This document shows positions 2,925-57,291 of a stretch of DNA of 64,000 bases, in pieces. Every line of letters starts with the position of its first letter. Positions within the stretch are counted from its first letter, which is position 1. This stretch comes from Paramecium tetraurelia. Lineage: Eukaryota > Ciliophora > Oligohymenophorea > Peniculida > Parameciidae. The stretch lies in assembly GCF_000165425.1 (NCBI RefSeq), contig NW_001799300.1, positions 419,736 to 483,735 of the forward strand, read 5' to 3'. Position numbers and translations under genes: made by a program. Below the pieces are notes generated by a model that saw only the letters and a program-made list of their open reading frames with translations, did no database searches and was not told the origin of the DNA.

Positions 2925-4059
2925 TCATTGTCTTCTAGATTGTTCAAATTGAGGATTCTTTCTTTGATTTATAATACCAAAGATCCCTTTATTCATAGTT
3001 TATTTAATGTTTATTTCCCTAGCTTTCACTTCATCCAGGTATTTAATTTAGGGATCGAAATTGCCAAACTTTCTGAGTTCTGCTCTGATATCCTTAACCT
3101 GAGGTTTAGAGAGGTCTAATATTAATTTGATATATGTTACGTTCCAAGAGTAAAAGAACATCCTTCAAGACTTCATCATTTTGTTTTCCATCAAAAGGCT
3201 TGATGAAAATACCATTGTCTTGATATTAATACATCCTCTCTGGATCAGAATCAAGAACTATAACTCTATTTAGAGGACGATTGAGATATTTCAAATCCCT
3301 AATGTATCTACCTTTCTCAAACACCATTGATTCTCTACCAAAGGCACCTGCAAATATCTATCTAGGTAGGATCCAATTTTTGAGTAATTTGTTATGTAAA
3401 CTGCATAATAAAAATACCAATACCATGGTTTCATCGTCACTCAAAATAACCACTTCATACATCTTAGGTAATTTTTCAAGAAACCTCTACAAACCATTTC
3501 TTCTTTTGATTTCTCCTCTAATTGTTCAAATTCAATAAATACCCAACACCAAACACATAATCCATATGCAATAGAGTACCTGAGATATTCAGTACTAAAG
3601 TCTTGGGTATCTCATATCCAAATGGCAACTCAGGGATATCGGGCAATAATTTATCGATTGCTGGCTTAGTCATAAACTAATGCTAGAATTAAGTGTTTAC
3701 ATCGTAAAATGCTTAGTATTGATCCTAGCAATATTTGGCAGCGTCATTTATCTGCTTTTAATAGCCTACTCATATATTGTCATTTTACCCAATTCTTGTG
3801 TTGGATCAGTTTTATAATTATTTAGATACAAATTATAGCCAAACAAAGCTGATGTTGTCCACCAAAATATCCTTGAAAACAATCTGAAGTATGAAAATGC
3901 TTTCTCTTTATTCTCCAATGTTGGGTTAGCCTCTTCTGCCTCTATCGTTCTCTCATCCCATTCATCCTACTATTCTTTTTGTTGTTATTGCTATTAACTA
4001 AACTTATATCTTGGGAAACGTAATAGAGTTAACGATCTAATTGAATATTTGCTTAGCAT
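2925..4059 (-). CDS. TIM50-like mitochondrial import translocase subunit
   Basis: Spliced length is 353 residues with three introns (3766-3788, 3518-3542, 3116-3140; 23-25 nt), all needed to avoid TGA. The N-terminus (MLSKYSIRSLTLLRF) is basic and free of acids, like a mitochondrial presequence, and a hydrophobic segment near residues 56-75 (RIFWWTTSALFGYNLYL) fits the single inner-membrane anchor. The rest follows the NLI/FCP1-like fold of TIM50: KTLVLNISGTLLHMD, then a YEVVILSDDE strand, RYIRDLKYLNRPL and VIVLDSDPE, and a C-terminal helix after KPFDGKQNDEVLKDV. The phosphatase Asp pair of FCP1 enzymes is degenerate here, as is usual for TIM50. Known role: presequence receptor of TIM23. It lies only 21 bp downstream of the phosphoesterase gene on the same strand. 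Confidence 0.85.
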
Positions 4060-47807: not shown

Positions 47808-50108
47808 ATGAATTAAAGAAACTTAGAGGATATACCTATAGATTAGTATGAGATGTCATCTCCATTTCTTGAGGATGGAATCAACAAATCTAACAGGTAA
47901 CCCTTGCTGATGATTAACGAAAAGAGTGATTCTTTTCAATCAAGCAATTATAAAATTGACACTCCTGGTTTCAAAGGTACTTTTAATTCAGGATCCGTTG
48001 ATTACGGTTATGCATTATTGAACTATTTTGATGAAGGAGAAGAAATAGCCGGAAACAGGAACGGTTAAATAGTAAAAAACTCTAATTCCACAAATAGTTT
48101 GTATATATGTAAATATCTTGAGTATATGCTAAGTTTATTAGAAACTTCCAGTATTTTTACCAAATTCTGTTGTTATGTTGATTTGGAAGGCCATCATTGC
48201 TGGGATCATACTGCTCTATTTTTTCGTGGTACCAATCACTGTGTGTTATGGTAGTGATGTTTGGGTATTTATACTATTAATTCAAGATTTTCTTGCCCAG
48301 CACTAAATACATAATAGATTCATTATCTTTCCTCTTTTTGCTACTTGATATAGCTTTAGAATTTTTGACAGCCTTTTATGAACATGGAAATTTAATTACA
48401 GATAAAGAAAGAATAGCTTATCAGTATTTGAGATTAAACTTTGCGTTAGATATTCTTGGCACTTTGGCCTTTGGTATTCAGTCATTCATACCAAATGACT
48501 CAGTTAATTTAATTTTGTTGTTATTTTTTTTAAAATACCCTGCACTTATAAAAATAGATTATCTTTTTGAAGAAGCTACATTATTATATCGAACATTGAG
48601 AACCATCTACAATGTAGGGAAGATTATTGTATTACTACAATTTTGCTTTTTGATATTTTCCTGTATATTTTATGTAATAGGAAAGTCCAGTGTTGAAGCA
48701 GGATATAATTCTTGGTTATTAAACGATGGTAATTTTGGAGTTATAGGAGAACTGAATCCTGGATTTTAATTTTTCTTCTCATATTACTTTGGATTAGGAA
48801 CAATGACAACAACTATGGGATATGGTGATATTACTCCATTAAATGTTTTTGAATGCACCTGGTGTCTTGGTGGAATATTTTTTGCTGTTTTCATCTTCTA
48901 AGTTAACGTTAATTCACTGTTTAAAATTATGGAAGAGTTTAATGTTCACCCCATGAAGATATTCAAAAAAAGAATAGCAGTAAATAAATTTATGCAATCC
49001 AAATCAGTGCCATTGGTAGTCTAAGAAAGAGTCAGAAGATATTTGAATGAACACTGGTATGAAGAAGGAACAAGGGATTTGACCTTAGAGTAGGAAATTT
49101 TCACTGAGTTGGCTCCTGAAATCAAGGAAGAATTATTTTATAATTCGTATGGAAAAATGTTTGACTAAATTCCATTTTTGTCTAAGACTTTCTCAATTGA
49201 ATTTTTAAGATCCATTTCAATCAAAATTGAGGAAATTAGTTTTGCCTAAAATGAAATTATTTTCTTAGACAATGTTGATTATCTCTTAGATGATTTTTCT
49301 ATTTATTTTATAGATTATGGTTCAATTCTCATTTTCGCCAACACCGGAGAATAGAGGCCTTTTTGGATCAAATAATTAGAGTCCCAGGAGTATTTTGGTG
49401 AGTGGTCTTTTTTGACTGGTAGACCTAGATTGGCATCTGCCTCTTCTATTTCTTATAGCAGGTTATACAAATTAAAGAGAGAGGTGTTTATGGATATCCT
49501 TGGATCCTTTTAGGATGATTTTGAAAAATATTGGATGATTCGAGATAAATTGATTTATTCAAATGACTTTAAAGTAATAAATAACATTTGTTGGAATTGT
49601 GAGTCAGATTCTCACTACGCAACGTAATGTCCTGTAACTCACTATATCCCACAAATAACAAAGGTAATTTGAAATTTCATACTTAGGAACTAACAATCAG
49701 TTTATATGCTGAATAGGAACGAAGTTAATATCAAAGAAAATAGAAATTAAGATGGAACACTATTTTAAGATCGTCATCTCAGATCTAAAAAACAGAGAGT
49801 TTTAGAGAATAAAATTAGGTAAATAATGTATTAAATTTTAGAATCAAGAGAACTAGGCTTAACAAGCAAACAATGCAGTTTAAGTAATATAGGATCAACA
49901 ATCATAGAAACAAAAGTAAATATTTGATAAGCCATACTAATTTAAACATTACTTTCCTAAATTCAATTACCATAAAATTTAAGCCTTCTAGAATCAAGCA
50001 GCTATTTCAAAAATTAACAATCTTAGGAAATCTGCGATGTATATCCCAAGCACAGCATATCGTTAAACAAAACAATCTGCCATTTTTGTTTGGCCAAAAT
50101 AGAGTTGA
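47808..50108 (+). CDS. K+ channel with CNBD-like C-terminus and zinc knuckle
   Basis: 736 residues, four introns (22, 22, 23, 23 nt; 737 codons exactly). The pre-S1 motif QKLPVFLPNSVVMLIWKAI leads into a six-segment membrane domain. The pore has TTMGYGDITPLN, with selectivity filter T321-M-G-Y-G-D326 where Val or Ile is usual at the Met. After S6 a C-linker (RRYLNEHWYEEG) and a degenerate cyclic-nucleotide-binding fold (FDQIPFLSKTFSIEFLRSIS ... GEWSFLTGRPRLASASS) follow. A CCHC zinc knuckle, CWNCESDSHYATQC (C580, C583, H588, C593), comes next, then a Gln-rich tail. The S4 segment is poor in Arg/Lys. Known of the family: K+ conductances in the ciliary and cell membrane that steer swimming. The stop is 20 bp before the next start. 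Confidence 0.9.
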
Positions 50109-50128: not shown

Positions 50129-51706
50129 ATGATAAAATCATTTGGTTATCTAGTATGTGGAGCTGTTATGATTCCATCAATCACGTATCTCAAAGATTAA
50201 AGCTAGATTGGCTGGCTCTACTGTGTATCTTTATCCTGAATTTCGAACCAATCCGACATAATTTTGGCTTGCATTTTAAAGAGTTTATAGAGTTGTAAAA
50301 GCTGGCACTAATATGGCTTTAGCATACCTAACACAGCCAGATCAACCTATGGATGATAAGCATTATTATGGAGCCCTTTAATTGAGGTCAGCCTTCTAGT
50401 AGAATAAAGGTTTGTACATCAAATTCGGATAGATATTAGGATCAGTAAATTGTGAAAATATTTGTAGCTTGACATCATTATACCCGAGCCATATAGGGCA
50501 ACATTTGAAGTTATGTGCACTTAGAATATTGAAACACCCTTCGAAGATATTGAGAGATAAATACATCTTTCAACAGGTAAAAATATAGAGGATTTATTTT
50601 AATCTTTCATAAAAAAGCCTATCTCATCTGCATCAATAGCATAAGTGCATTAAGCATTTTTGAAGGATGGCAGAGAAGTTGCTGTAAAAATATAGCATCC
50701 TTGGTTGAAAGAGTAAATAGATGGAGATGTTAAACTAATTAGTTTGTTTACAGACGTAGCTGAGTTTATCTTTAAAGGTTTTAAATACAAATGGTTGGCT
50801 GAGGAATTGTAAGTGAATTTACCAAAAGAGCTTGATTTTCATGGAGAAATCAATAATGCTAAAAGAATTAAAGAAATTCTTAAACCATTTCCTGATATCT
50901 ATATTCCAAAAGTTTATGAGGAATATTGCAATGACAGGGTGATTGTAATGGAGTTCATTCATGGCACTCCTCTGTCTGATATTCTGAGAGAAAAAGAGAA
51001 ACACGATTTCAATTACCCTAAAATAGCTCACACTATTTCAACTGCATTTGCTCATTAGATATTCAAACACGGATTTGTACATTCAGATCCTCACAAAGGT
51101 AACATTATGGTTAGAAAATTAAATGGAAAACAACAAGTAGTCTTATTAGATCATGGTCTCTACACAAATTTAAATGAAAAAACAAAACTCAGTTACTCTT
51201 TGTTATGGCAAGGCATTTTAGAAATGAATTTAGATTACATAAAATAAGCAACCACTGATTTAGGTGCCGCTTAAAATTATAAATTATTTGCTTCTATGGT
51301 TACAAGCAAAAGATTTTCAGATTTGATGAATACTTCTATGAATATGTCGGACAGATTAAAAAGACCCAAAGATTAAGATGAAATTGCTATATTGATTTAA
51401 AAGGCAGCCAAAAAACATAAATAGATAACAATAATCTTAAATTAGATTGATAGGTAATTGTATAATGTTTAAAGTAGAAAACTATTGATGTTATTCAAAA
51501 TTAATGACTTCCTAAAAAATATTGAATTCAGATTAGGAAATCCAATTGATAGCTGTTAAATCACATATAATTATGTATCTATGGTGAATTATGAAGATAA
51601 AATTAAAAAGCAAAATTTTCTTAGAAGAATGATGTATAAATTCCGGCTCATGTTGCATAAAGTAAAATTTGAAATTTTAAGTATTGTTATGAGTATTATT
51701 ATGTGA
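50129..51706 (+). CDS. ABC1/ADCK-family atypical kinase (ADCK1-like)
   Basis: 510 residues, two introns (22 and 23 nt; 511 codons exactly). Family signatures run in order: GLYIKFGQILGS (KxGQ motif) near residue 95, SASIAQVHQAFLKDGREVAV, the ELDFHGEINNAKR helix pair, DRVIVMEFIHGTP, the catalytic loop HSDPHKGNIMVR near residue 303, and VVLLDHGLY near 327 in place of DFG. The N-terminus MIKSFGYLVCGAVMIP is hydrophobic and may anchor the protein in mitochondria. ABC1 proteins support coenzyme Q and lipid metabolism in mitochondria. It follows the K+ channel stop by only 20 bp. Confidence 0.9.
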
Positions 51707-52172: not shown

Positions 52173-55100
52173 ATGGATGAAGCTTAAAAAAGTTATCTAA
52201 ATTTATTGAAGAAGACTTTTGAAAAAAGGCAGGAGTTTATTAGATATGATGTTGTCCTCTTTCAACAATTCAGAAATAAATTGACTGTTCACAGCGCAGC
52301 AATCTCAAGGAATTCAGAAATGCTTGTGTGTGGTTGTAGCAAGGTGTGTTGTATCTTATAATCATGATAATAGAGCATCATTATCTTATATGACCTTATA
52401 TCCAAACAGGCTATAAAGGCATCAAATAAAAAGCAATTGCAATTTAGAAAACATCAAATAGTAACTGTTGCATTTTCGAATTGTTATGACTATATCATCG
52501 CAGGTAAAAATAAATATAATTTAGGAAATACTATGGGTGATTTGCTAATATATGAAATTACAATTGACATTTAAAATTAGAAATTTGAGTTAGATCTTAT
52601 GAGATTTGTCCCGTAATATCATGAAAAAGCATTGCAAATAATTTTTCACTCAAGCATAGATCATTTATTAACGATCAGCAGTGACAAACTTAGAGTTACA
52701 ATGATAAGTGAGTTTATTCAACATGAAAACATTGATGAATCTTAGATTTAAATCAGTCAAAATTTAGGAGGGGCTACAACTTCCAAATTGTCCTATCATA
52801 ATGGTCATTATTATTTATACATAGGAATGAGAAACAATAAAATAGTTCAAATTAGATCATGTAATTTACACTTTTAATTAATTTAGCCCAGCTATATTCA
52901 AAACCTAAGAATGAAACATTTGTTTATTCGATTAATAGCTCGAGTTCTGTGATCAGTAAACTAGAAGTATCAAATGATCAGTCTCTACTTGCAATCGCCT
53001 ACCAAAGTGCATAGTAAGAGTAAGGAAACTTGTAGATTGTGTATTTAAAAAAAGGAAAGTAAATATATTCATAAAATGGGATAACAAAATTAAAAATAAG
53101 TTAGCTTTTATTCTTTAACTCGAATTCTCACTTATGCATTAGTTCTTGGGATGGTACCTTTCATATTTTGGACATTAAAAGTAAAGAAATATTAAAGACA
53201 TACTCTCATGTAATGCATGAATAAGGAGTGATAACCTTCTTTCCTTTAACAGAGGTTTCAGAGTTTCCAAATCTAATATCTGTAGGGCAGGATCATCAAA
53301 TAAAGAAATATTATTTCGGAAAAATAAAAGAATAGCTATTCGAATATATTCCATTCATTTTTTGGGTTGAATAACGAATAAGATAAGAGTTATAATTCTA
53401 GAGTGAATTGCATAATTATTAAAAATTACTTTACATAGAAAGCATGGGAGTAGATAGCGTTAAAATGAGAGAATTAAATTAAAGTATTTTTGGATTCGAA
53501 AAATTTGACCCATTAATTAAAAGAATAATAGACTATAGCGAATACAAGGAGAGAGCATTCTATTTATATAAAAAATATGAATCAGAAATGTAACAAACAA
53601 TAGCCTCTTCAATATAAAGACCAAATAAATTACCTCCATTAGATTTACAGTAAAAGAATCCATAAGTTGATGCCCCTTAAAACCTTATTCAAAGTGGAAT
53701 TTTAGTAAATCCAATTTAAATTCAAGAACCTTTAAAAATATTTTCTGAATATTTTTCATTCACTTTTAAACGAATTTCTGATACAATTATCTATGACAGA
53801 ATTAAGTTGATGGTTCTATAAAAATGCAATTTCATTTTTGATGAAAGATACCCTTTCAAATAGCATTTATTCTCCAATCTAAAACGAATGAAAAATTTAA
53901 AATACTTAGACCTTTCATATAATTCTTTGTACCTTGAAGATGTATTATAAATTCTAGAATAACTAAAAAATGTCACTTTGTTGGATTTCTTAAGTTTAGC
54001 TCATAATAATTTAGGAGATAGTTCAACCATTAAATTCAATAACTCTGACGCCATTATGAGACTTTTAGATGAAGTTGAGGCAATATCCTTAAGGTCTAAT
54101 AATTTGTCAGATATTGATGGAGAATCTATTTTGAATTAAATAAAACATGTAAGGATATTTAATAAATTCAATAGTTTAAAAAATTAAAAATATTAGATGT
54201 TTCTGGTAATTTATCCTTTAAAGATAAGACCTTATAGGCGTTATAGAGAATAACAATTCTGTAAAATAAAATTGAATTTTCTTCTTAAAGAAATGATTTT
54301 CTAAATTTCTTAAATAATATTAGAATTTTATAAGAGAATGAATAGTAAGAAGAACTTGAAGATTAGATGAAATCTTAAGATAAGCAAAGTAATTTAGGAG
54401 AAAATGAAAAATTAATTGAAAATCTGCCTGAACAGCAACCTTCCTAGACTTTTGATAGATCGGCTTCAATGTCTAGTTCTGGTAATTATATGTCATTGCA
54501 ATTGTTATGTATTTAATTTTAAAAGGAGGTTTGTGAATAAGCGATGAAAACGGCAACAGATTTTTTGGTTTAAAGAAAAATAACAAACTTATATATATAT
54601 GTTGTTGATAATAAGGAGGATGATGTGTGGGAGACATCAATTTCAATTTATTATACAAGAGGACTGAAAAAGCTGAATGATTATATATTTGGTTGCTTAG
54701 GAGGAATTATTTTAGTAGTTTTTTCATGTTTTGTAGGGATTTATTAAATCATCAGATAGGAAGGTTTCTATTGTATTAGAAGAATCTTTTGTACAAATTA
54801 CTGTTTATGGAAATATTTAGCTTGTGGATTTTGTACTTTCTTAACTACATCCTTTGGAAAGTTTATTGTTAAATTATTTGGTGTAGAACAATCCTACTTT
54901 GAGTATAATCCTAAAATAATAAATCTAGAATAAGAATTAATAAATATCAAATATAAAGGATTTATCCTTTTTACAATATATTTTATCAGCTACTATTTTG
55001 TAGTAGTCTTTCTACCTATAATATTTGTGAATGCTTGCTCTGGTCAATAATGGTTAGGTCATTTGATTTATATTGCTTTTGCTTGTTATTCCTTTCTTGT

Positions 55101-57291
55101 CGAAGGCTATCTTGGTTTAACAATCAGTAATCTTAAGGTTACTACTAATGAATATACTGATGGTAGCACACTGGCAAGATATTTTTACATTATCAAAGAT
55201 CTATTAATCAGTCAATTAACCAAATTTGAATTGTACACATGCATTTGTTTCATTGTGCTAGTTGATTCTTGTTAAATATCAGTTGCTATCGCTTGGATAG
55301 GAGTTGGGATAATTTGTTTTAATTTACTATTAGATTTAGCTTTAATAGTTAGATATTTATTAATACCTTATATAAATCAAAAGAAACCTTCCTATATAGA
55401 TATTTTTACGCAGTTTTCAACTCTTTATTAAATGAATATTGTCACAAATTTACTTGAAAAATGGTCTGAATAAAATACAATATATATTTTTTTCTTGAAA
55501 TCAGAAGTACCCTAAAAAGTTGTAGTTTCAATTATCAAAACATTTTTTCAAGACACTCCATTACTTATTTTATAAGCTGTTTACTTAGGTATGAATCCAA
55601 CTCAAATCAAAATTTAAATTTTCATCGTTTCATTTACAACAGTGGTCATTCATTTCATATTTTCTATGATCAAAATGTTATCAATTACAAGAGCTGCCAA
55701 AATCAATGAAGAAATTGTTTTAACAGAAGTTTCAAAAGTTAAATTTCATAATAAATAAATAAAAATAATTCAAGAATTAAAAAAATTTATTAGAAACCTC
55801 AAAAAAAAGTTCTAAAATATAATCACTTAACATAATTAGAGGAATGAAAATTTAATCACTTCTTTAGTAGATGCTGAAAGAGCCTTACTTAATAGACCTC
55901 ATACAATGCAAAATTTTGAATTATATCTCAAATAAAAGAGCTCTAAGATCCTACCAGCTCGAAAGGGAATTACATAAATAGGTAATAAGATCTAAAGGAT
56001 TAATGTTTCAAAAAATTAGAAGATTAATTAAGAAGAGCTTCAAAAATTAATATCTGTGAAAGCCTCACTAGATATATTTGGAAATAAAGTAAAAAGTTGG
56101 AAGATAAACAATGAAATACCGCTTGATCTAACTGATGTCTTATTAAATGATGTTCCTAGATAATTTTTTACTATTGATTTGGATTGGGAGGCAAGCTAAC
56201 CTTGGGTTGGAAACATGAGAATATCTTCTTTGAAATAAGAGATCGAAGGACTTAAGATGGCCTATAGACACTTTTAAAATTCAGGTGATTTAAATATATT
56301 GGATTTAGGATTTGGTTCAGGATATATTTCTTTTTTTTTATTGGCATTAGCGTTAAAAAGGAAAAAGCTCTTTTCAATTCAGTTGCATTTAGTAGATCAT
56401 CATCCTGATGCAATCAAGTATTTTGAATAAAAGCTCAATACAGAATTTTCCCATTTAAAAAAGATATGTAAAATTGAATATCACTTACACGATTGTTTTG
56501 AAGGTTTAAACTTATTTTAAGATTAAAAATTCAACTTTATACACCTTGGTTATGCAACAACTAAATGGAGAATTCAAAGAGATATAATACCATTACTTTC
56601 TGATGATGGATTGATTTTTGGTTACGAAACAGTAAGCAGTTTAGAATAAAAAGCATTTTCATGGAGTTAAGCCCAAAAATAAATGGTTTATTCATAAAAC
56701 TTAGAATAATATGGAATAATGGAACCACTGACTATCCAACTAAAAGGAGTTGATTAGAATTTTTTAGATAATCAAATAAAATAACAATTAGATATCCTTA
56801 ATCATATACGGTTGTATGATTAATGCGCTTTATGTGAAAAAAAGCTAAGTAAAGAAGATAAATAATTTATTAATCATTATTGGGGAGAGGTAATTTGTTT
56901 TTCTTGTGGAAATGAGCAATTAGAATAATAGGGTGAAGAAATTGACATAGCAAAAATTAATTATAGATGCAACGTTATATACTACACAGGCAGCAATTGC
57001 AAATTATCTTAGATAAAACAAATTTCTATTTTGTTAGAGAACTTAACTTATCCATTTGGCCATAAGGTTGGAACCATTCGAGAATATTCTTATGTGTGCT
57101 CATCTTGCAATTCTAAACGAGGATTTGGATTTTTATACAAATGCTTAATTTGTGATTCTGTGCATTATTGCAACACTTGCGGACTGTAATTAATGAGAGA
57201 TAATTAAATGAAGTATCATTCTGCTTGCAATTAAGATCATCCTCTATTGAGAATAGTTTTTCCATCAAAGACATAAAAAGGGAAAAAATGA
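52173..57291 (+). CDS. WD40-LRR-XKR-like TM-PCMT-like methyltransferase-zinc finger fusion
   Basis: 1,671 residues; four introns (30, 21, 26, 26 nt) leave 5,016 coding bases, exactly 1,672 codons. Residues about 20-450: WD40 propeller (ISRNSEMLVCGCSKSIIILY, CISSWDGTFHILDIKS, LISVGQDHQIKKYYFG). About 545-690: leucine-rich repeats (NLKYLDLSYNSLYLED, AISLRSNNLSDIDG, LKILDVSGN). About 800-1,170: multiple membrane segments, beginning FGCLGGIILVVFSCFVGIY, including FFQDTPLLILQAVYLG, which resembles the signature of XK-related proteins. About 1,300-1,480: methyltransferase of L-isoaspartyl (PCMT) type, with QPWVGNMRISSLKQEIEGL, motif I ILDLGFGSGYISFF, acidic VDHHPDAIKYF and FNFIHLGYATTKW. About 1,515-1,671: Cys-rich tail with ZZ-like CSSCNSKRGFGFLYKCLIC ... 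HYCNTC. No internal start or stop divides it. Confidence 0.85.

Follow-up and report, generated by a model that had tools for sequence, protein, structure and literature searches.

In a window of 64,000 nucleotides from Paramecium tetraurelia (assembly GCF_000165425.1, contig NW_001799300.1, forward-strand positions 419,736 to 483,735; all coordinates below are those of this window) we identified a five-exon gene on the plus strand (52173..57291) encoding a protein of 1,671 amino acids, in which a WD40-like β-propeller, leucine-rich repeats (LRRs), a membrane module, a PCMT-family class I methyltransferase domain and a cysteine-rich zinc module follow each other. Analysis of the sequence confirmed that this five-module fusion is one real continuous gene, and a colinear paralog on another contig, C200, indicates that the fusion is old. 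The individual parts are of known kinds and their order is one for which we found no description, as neither a PCMT-XK fusion nor this domain order was described among the matches listed for open-licence PubMed Central text. The most likely reading, to which we give roughly an even chance, is that the protein is a membrane scaffold carrying an S-adenosylmethionine (SAM)-binding, PCMT-derived cytosolic domain.

The gene was read with the ciliate code 6, in which TAA and TAG encode glutamine and TGA is the stop, and with introns of 21-30 nt. It starts with an ATG at 52173 and ends with a TGA at 57289-57291, and removal of four plus-strand introns (52344..52373, 30 nt; 52504..52524, 21 nt; 52861..52886, 26 nt; 54149..54174, 26 nt) leaves a coding sequence of 5,016 nt, i.e. 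1,672 codons including the stop, with the terminal TGA as the only stop. Intron 1, which takes out an in-frame TGA, has a GTG donor (GTGTG...TAG), the least canonical of the four. From the base composition 31 TGA codons are expected in 1,671 random codons and the probability of finding none is 1.8e-14, but, since the four introns were picked so as to keep the frame, the cleaner value is that of the last exon alone (2.9e-9), an open frame of 1,038 codons that runs from the end of the LRRs through the membrane module and methyltransferase to the zinc tail. The start, the stop and all four introns of our model were also chosen by a simple gene finder, which is not independent, as its training set consisted of open frames from this window. 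The gene finder also proposed two extra introns in the membrane module (54715-54736 and 54903-54928), which we rejected because the un-spliced reading there aligns with the C200 paralog. A repeat scan found AT-rich repeat pairs in the region and nothing striking.

Genome searches covered a single genome (69-Mb assembly, 231 contigs; the window is part of contig C168) with a tool that scores only the best first-look candidates. The last exon as query (E up to 0.001) yielded one other locus, on C200, which was read as a spliced protein of 1,714 amino acids; the introns of this model are predictions, of which the 35-nt one is uncertain, and its start was chosen by hand, so that short stretches of it may be wrong. 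A single BLASTP alignment connects residues 35-1662 of the window protein with residues 52-1707 of the C200 protein (24% identity over 1,777 columns, E 2.6e-102). All five modules are present in the same order, the identity per block (MAFFT) being 24% for the propeller, 29% for the LRRs, 35% for the membrane module, 24% for the methyltransferase and 30% for the zinc tail, and a search with the LRR-side exon (E up to 0.1) returned the window gene and the C200 gene only. The initial annotation had claimed a single frame of 1,672 codons without internal break and this domain order; both hold, the former through the spliced code-6 reading together with the colinear paralog, the latter through its recurrence in that paralog. 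As the paralog keeps all five modules, the fusion is, judged from this pair, real and old, predating a deep duplication. The one neighbour tried for synteny, the upstream gene, has paralogs on C138, C160, C155, C213 and C228 among the matches listed and not on C200, and thus no synteny was shown. We also observed a relic on C77 (L045, about 3016-3677, minus strand), whose DNA is 66% identical over 578 nt to 56002-56573, with two shorter pieces, and whose protein match to the window gene is broken by TGA stops; it is probably a lost duplicate of the window gene.

The methyltransferase domain (residues 1246-1512; 56011..56811, plus strand) was assigned by profiles, by the PCMT match of its C200 counterpart and by alignment with canonical PCMT. 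Alone, the window domain matched generic methyltransferase models only, all below cut-off (best Methyltransf_31, 2e-5, 24.7 bits versus 27), and it had no match to PCMT (PF01135) at E up to 10. The C200 domain matched PF01135 with an E value of 1.7e-11 (44.8 bits, cut-off 20.3), and a profile of the two copies ranked an isoaspartate methyltransferase (1r18, which we take to be the fly enzyme) first among 177,635 PDB sequences (E 5.9e-4). Against a ciliate profile made from C200 and the PCMT part of the canonical gene on C149, the window domain scored 39.3 bits, where the highest of 2,000 shuffles reached 11.9 bits, and it scored 16.3 bits to the canonical PCMT versus 3.4 bits to a protein of this genome that resembles arsenite methyltransferases. 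NCBIfam matches of the last exon were all far below cut-off. The PCMT-like methyltransferase of the initial annotation is therefore borne out by the C200 match and the ciliate profile, and the profile searches run as a test assigned the last domains to no unrelated family, the family names coming via the paralog.

SAM motif I (ILDLGFGSGY; 56296..56325, plus strand), which the initial annotation had thought to be kept, is indeed present, reading DLGFGSG in the window copy, DIGCGSA in C200 and DIGSGSG in the canonical protein; the window motif is complete, and that of C200 departs from DxGxGxG at the last G. After strand 2 the three proteins read DHHP, DHIP and EHVP, respectively, and in the GxA stretch IHLGYA, VNYGFA and IHVGAA. 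The canonical PCMT on C149 also has the motif TISAPHMHA, ahead of motif I, which we take to be the isoaspartyl-binding site of PIMT. It is replaced by RISSLKQEI in the window copy and by FIESFDVQI in C200, and because it is lost in both fusions isoaspartyl repair, the function suggested in the initial annotation, is doubtful; the domain appears to have left this activity. A genome search with PF01135 gave five matches, two in the canonical C149 gene, a broken one on C44, and one each on C51 and C174, whose proteins look to us like arsenite methyltransferases; this search missed the C200 domain and hence is not exhaustive. The C44 match (L005/L012) contains two TGA stops, and the gene next to it has an end similar to that of the canonical PCMT's neighbour; the match is likely a broken duplicate.

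The membrane module (residues 803-1134; 54682..55677, plus strand), common to C200 and the second family described below, was modelled with eight helices and both ends predicted cytosolic, the helices beyond those given by hydropathy being placed by hand with the paralog and the XK-like motif as guides (helices 1-2, 5 and 7 are least certain). In this arrangement the outer loops have 5-8 residues with 0-2 Lys and Arg, except for a first outer loop of 18-19 residues, the inner loops have 24-56 residues, and a PQ motif (PL in the window copy) falls in placed helix 7. Its second half (residues 976-1134; 55201..55677, plus strand) is an XK-like repeat, as its C200 equivalent matched the XK-related family PF09815 with 23.2 bits (E 3.9e-5; cut-off 24.8); the whole C200 module matched more weakly (E 0.015), a relative on C26 reached 16.6 bits (E 0.0041, likewise below the cut-off), and ten control sequences, reversed or locally shuffled, gave no match. 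A PF09815 search of the genome gave no match anywhere, controls included, and was hence uninformative. The module thus looks distantly related, XK-like rather than a member of the XK-related family: of the XKR-like domain in the initial annotation a distant likeness stands, through the C200 half, and membership does not, the window copy alone being unmatched and the family cut-off not reached. According to the passages available of a study of XKR9 (PMC8298096), that protein is built from two related repeats comprising eight helices, its loops being short on the outer and longer on the inner side, and its conserved acidic residues lie mainly in helices 1 and 3; helix 3 is hydrophilic, is overlooked by hydropathy and has a kink at a conserved PQL motif.

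A weak match on C2 (E 0.02) revealed a second family with both halves of the same membrane module at seven loci, namely on C2 (two genes), C201, C209, C226 (two places) and C26, so that the module was seen at nine loci in this ciliate. These loci (labelled L017 and L019-L026) encode giant leucine-rich proteins whose N-terminal parts are LRR-like by eye; that of C26, the one scanned, had no Pfam match at E up to 0.1. Past the membrane module the C2 gene, whose N-terminus was not reached, has no methyltransferase and no zinc tail. We aligned the modules of the two fusions and of five of the seven second-family loci, leaving out the second C2 and second C226 genes, of which there were pieces only. 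Six of the seven aligned members read K[FY]DxxxD and EDxPQ where the window copy has KFELYTC (55222..55242, plus strand) and QDTPLLILQ (55549..55575, plus strand), i.e. E, C and Q instead of D, D and E. From motif spacing and the Xkr8 sequence we tentatively equate these positions with the acidic residues D26, D30 and E141 of Xkr8; E137 was not placed. Scrambling by Xkr8 requires D26, D30, R134, E137, E141 and R183, as stated in the excerpted text of PMC8500837. Outside the alignment, the second C2 gene keeps the signature (YDQFND, EDLPQ) and the second C226 gene departs from it (EKDLPF), so that the window copy stands apart within the alignment of seven modules but not across all nine loci. 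Because its acidic/PQ signature departs, lipid scrambling by the window copy is doubtful.

Towards the N-terminus, the propeller (about residues 35-360; 52275..53329, plus strand) matched several Pfam propeller models, of which ANAPC4_WD40 alone exceeded its cut-off (31.7 bits versus 22.9), the others having E values of 1.6e-9 and weaker; in C200 all propeller matches were below cut-off (best 3.7e-4). The LRRs (about residues 501-690; 53750..54345, plus strand) stayed below the Pfam cut-off in the window copy (LRR_4, E 0.0016, or 0.027 when the whole protein was scanned), and C200 matched LRR_4 with 1.9e-5, also below cut-off, and LRR_1 with 20.9 bits (cut-off 20.6). At the other end lies a module with eight invariant cysteines and a weak ZZ-finger resemblance (residues 1513-1671; 56812..57288, plus strand), which puts the zinc tail of the initial annotation on firmer ground. 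Using the C200 tail as query we found three further loci, on C12 (5.6e-14), C27 (5.6e-12) and C174 (1.7e-8), whose gene models (L034, L035, L036) end in the same module, the eight cysteines being invariant in all five aligned tails. Both of the tail-sharing proteins scanned (of three) have a thioredoxin-like domain above cut-off (Thioredoxin_8, 2e-13 and 2.9e-10). Pfam gave no named family for the tail and no ZZ profile match; zinc binding is suggested by the cysteines.

Taken together, the two genes would form a family of large membrane scaffold proteins in this genome, with the propeller and LRRs on one side of the membrane module and the methyltransferase and zinc modules on the other, both sides predicted to be cytosolic. 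Partner or client binding may be the task of the propeller/LRR part; the membrane module would anchor the complex in the membrane, that of C200 perhaps also moving lipids, and the PCMT-derived domain may bind SAM and methylate a carboxyl group other than that of free isoaspartate; alternatively, it may be a SAM-binding recognition domain, as reported for PCMTD1/2. The window copy keeps the SAM motif and looks adapted to the SAM-binding role, and C200 keeps the acidic membrane signature and looks adapted to the membrane role.

Several results weigh against a membrane scaffold of this kind. Hydropathy alone gives six segments per copy, not eight; five of the seven members scanned, among them the window copy (E up to 10), had no XK match, all XK scores are below the Pfam cut-off, and sequence searches of the PDB found no XKR chains. 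In the PDB the tail matches a ribosomal protein best (E 0.11) and p62 ZZ fingers next (0.83 and weaker). With the methyltransferase-zinc part of the window protein as query (E up to 1) the genome search returned the window gene itself and the C77 relic and missed C200, and the reverse searches from C200 matched the window methyltransferase weakly (E 0.001 and 0.0035), so that this block has diverged far; moreover, the homologue search was limited to one genome.

Next after the SAM-binding membrane scaffold in our ranking is a structure-only scaffold, in which the methyltransferase and XK-like parts of the window copy are both inactive, their roles being those of folded binding modules and of an anchor. 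The low methyltransferase identity between the copies (24%), the altered acidic and PQ residues of the window copy and the altered SAM motif of C200 (GCGSA) point in this direction, but in the window copy SAM motif I is kept, as are IHLGYA and the acidic residue that follows strand 2, and its frame stays open across 5 kb; we consider this possible and rather unlikely. Less probable still, and in our judgement clearly unlikely, is membrane-tethered repair, in which long-lived proteins of the membrane or cortex still have their isoaspartyl damage mended by the PCMT domain, with the propeller/LRR part picking the clients. Thioredoxin-like proteins are associated with protein maintenance, and the tail shared with them, the PCMT ancestry and the intact SAM motif I of the window copy would fit such a role; TISAPHMHA, however, is lost in both copies, and a canonical PCMT with this motif exists on C149. 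The complementary signatures of the two copies, a handful of residues, are also compatible with a mixed complex of both proteins, with an XK-type lipid-moving module coming from C200 and a SAM-dependent carboxyl methyltransferase from the window copy; the SAM level or a methylated client would then gate the lipid asymmetry of a ciliate membrane, an idea that we regard as a long shot. That two adjacent genes were wrongly joined, or that the assembly is chimeric, is extremely improbable: the four introns were chosen from sequence alone, but the 1,038-codon exon spans the LRR end to the stop, and since the colinear paralog on another contig has the same order the artefact would have had to occur twice.

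Upstream of the fusion gene the window contains a gene (50313-51706) with matches on five other contigs, whose product resembles ABC1/ADCK-type kinases, and another predicted protein (47808-50108) with a voltage-gated-channel-like stretch.

Several known systems resemble the fusion in part. With PCMT/PIMT the methyltransferase domain shares family membership, by profile via the paralog, as well as motif I, [DE]-H-x-P and the GxA stretch, but it differs in lacking TISAPHMHA and in being joined to a membrane protein, which would be a novel context for domains of the PCMT family. PCMTD2 is a substrate receptor of CUL5, and in both PCMTD1 and PCMTD2 a PCMT domain is linked to another domain, the SOCS box; here, by contrast, the partners are a zinc module and a membrane part, and Pfam scans of the C-terminal parts gave no SOCS-box match. 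In the excerpted text of PMC10798966, which cites another paper, PCMTD1 binds SAM and seems to have no isoaspartyl methyltransferase activity. The membrane module resembles the XK-related proteins XKR8, XKR9 and XK in the loops between its placed helices, which are short outside and longer inside, and in a helix with acidic residues ahead of a PQ motif, but the likeness is confined to the second half, the first being unmatched, the module is fused to other domains, and the window copy lacks the signature residues. The giant leucine-rich proteins of the second family likewise carry this module behind long leucine-rich stretches, unlike the fusions without a methyltransferase or zinc tail after it on C2. 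In Tetrahymena, ciliary vesicles have flippase/floppase and scramblase candidates, for which the available passages of PMC12029339 give no link to this gene. Finally, in alveolates, i.e. apicomplexans and ciliates, a P4-ATPase flippase is fused to a guanylyl cyclase, according to the accessible part of PMC7858053. There too a membrane module of the lipid-transport type is joined to a cytosolic signalling enzyme, but the flippase ATPase and cyclase domains are unrelated to those found here. If the membrane module described here moves lipids, it would be a second alveolate case, after the cyclase-P4-ATPase, in which a cytosolic enzyme is attached to a membrane module of this type, and the mixed complex, if true, would parallel the cyclase-flippase fusion.

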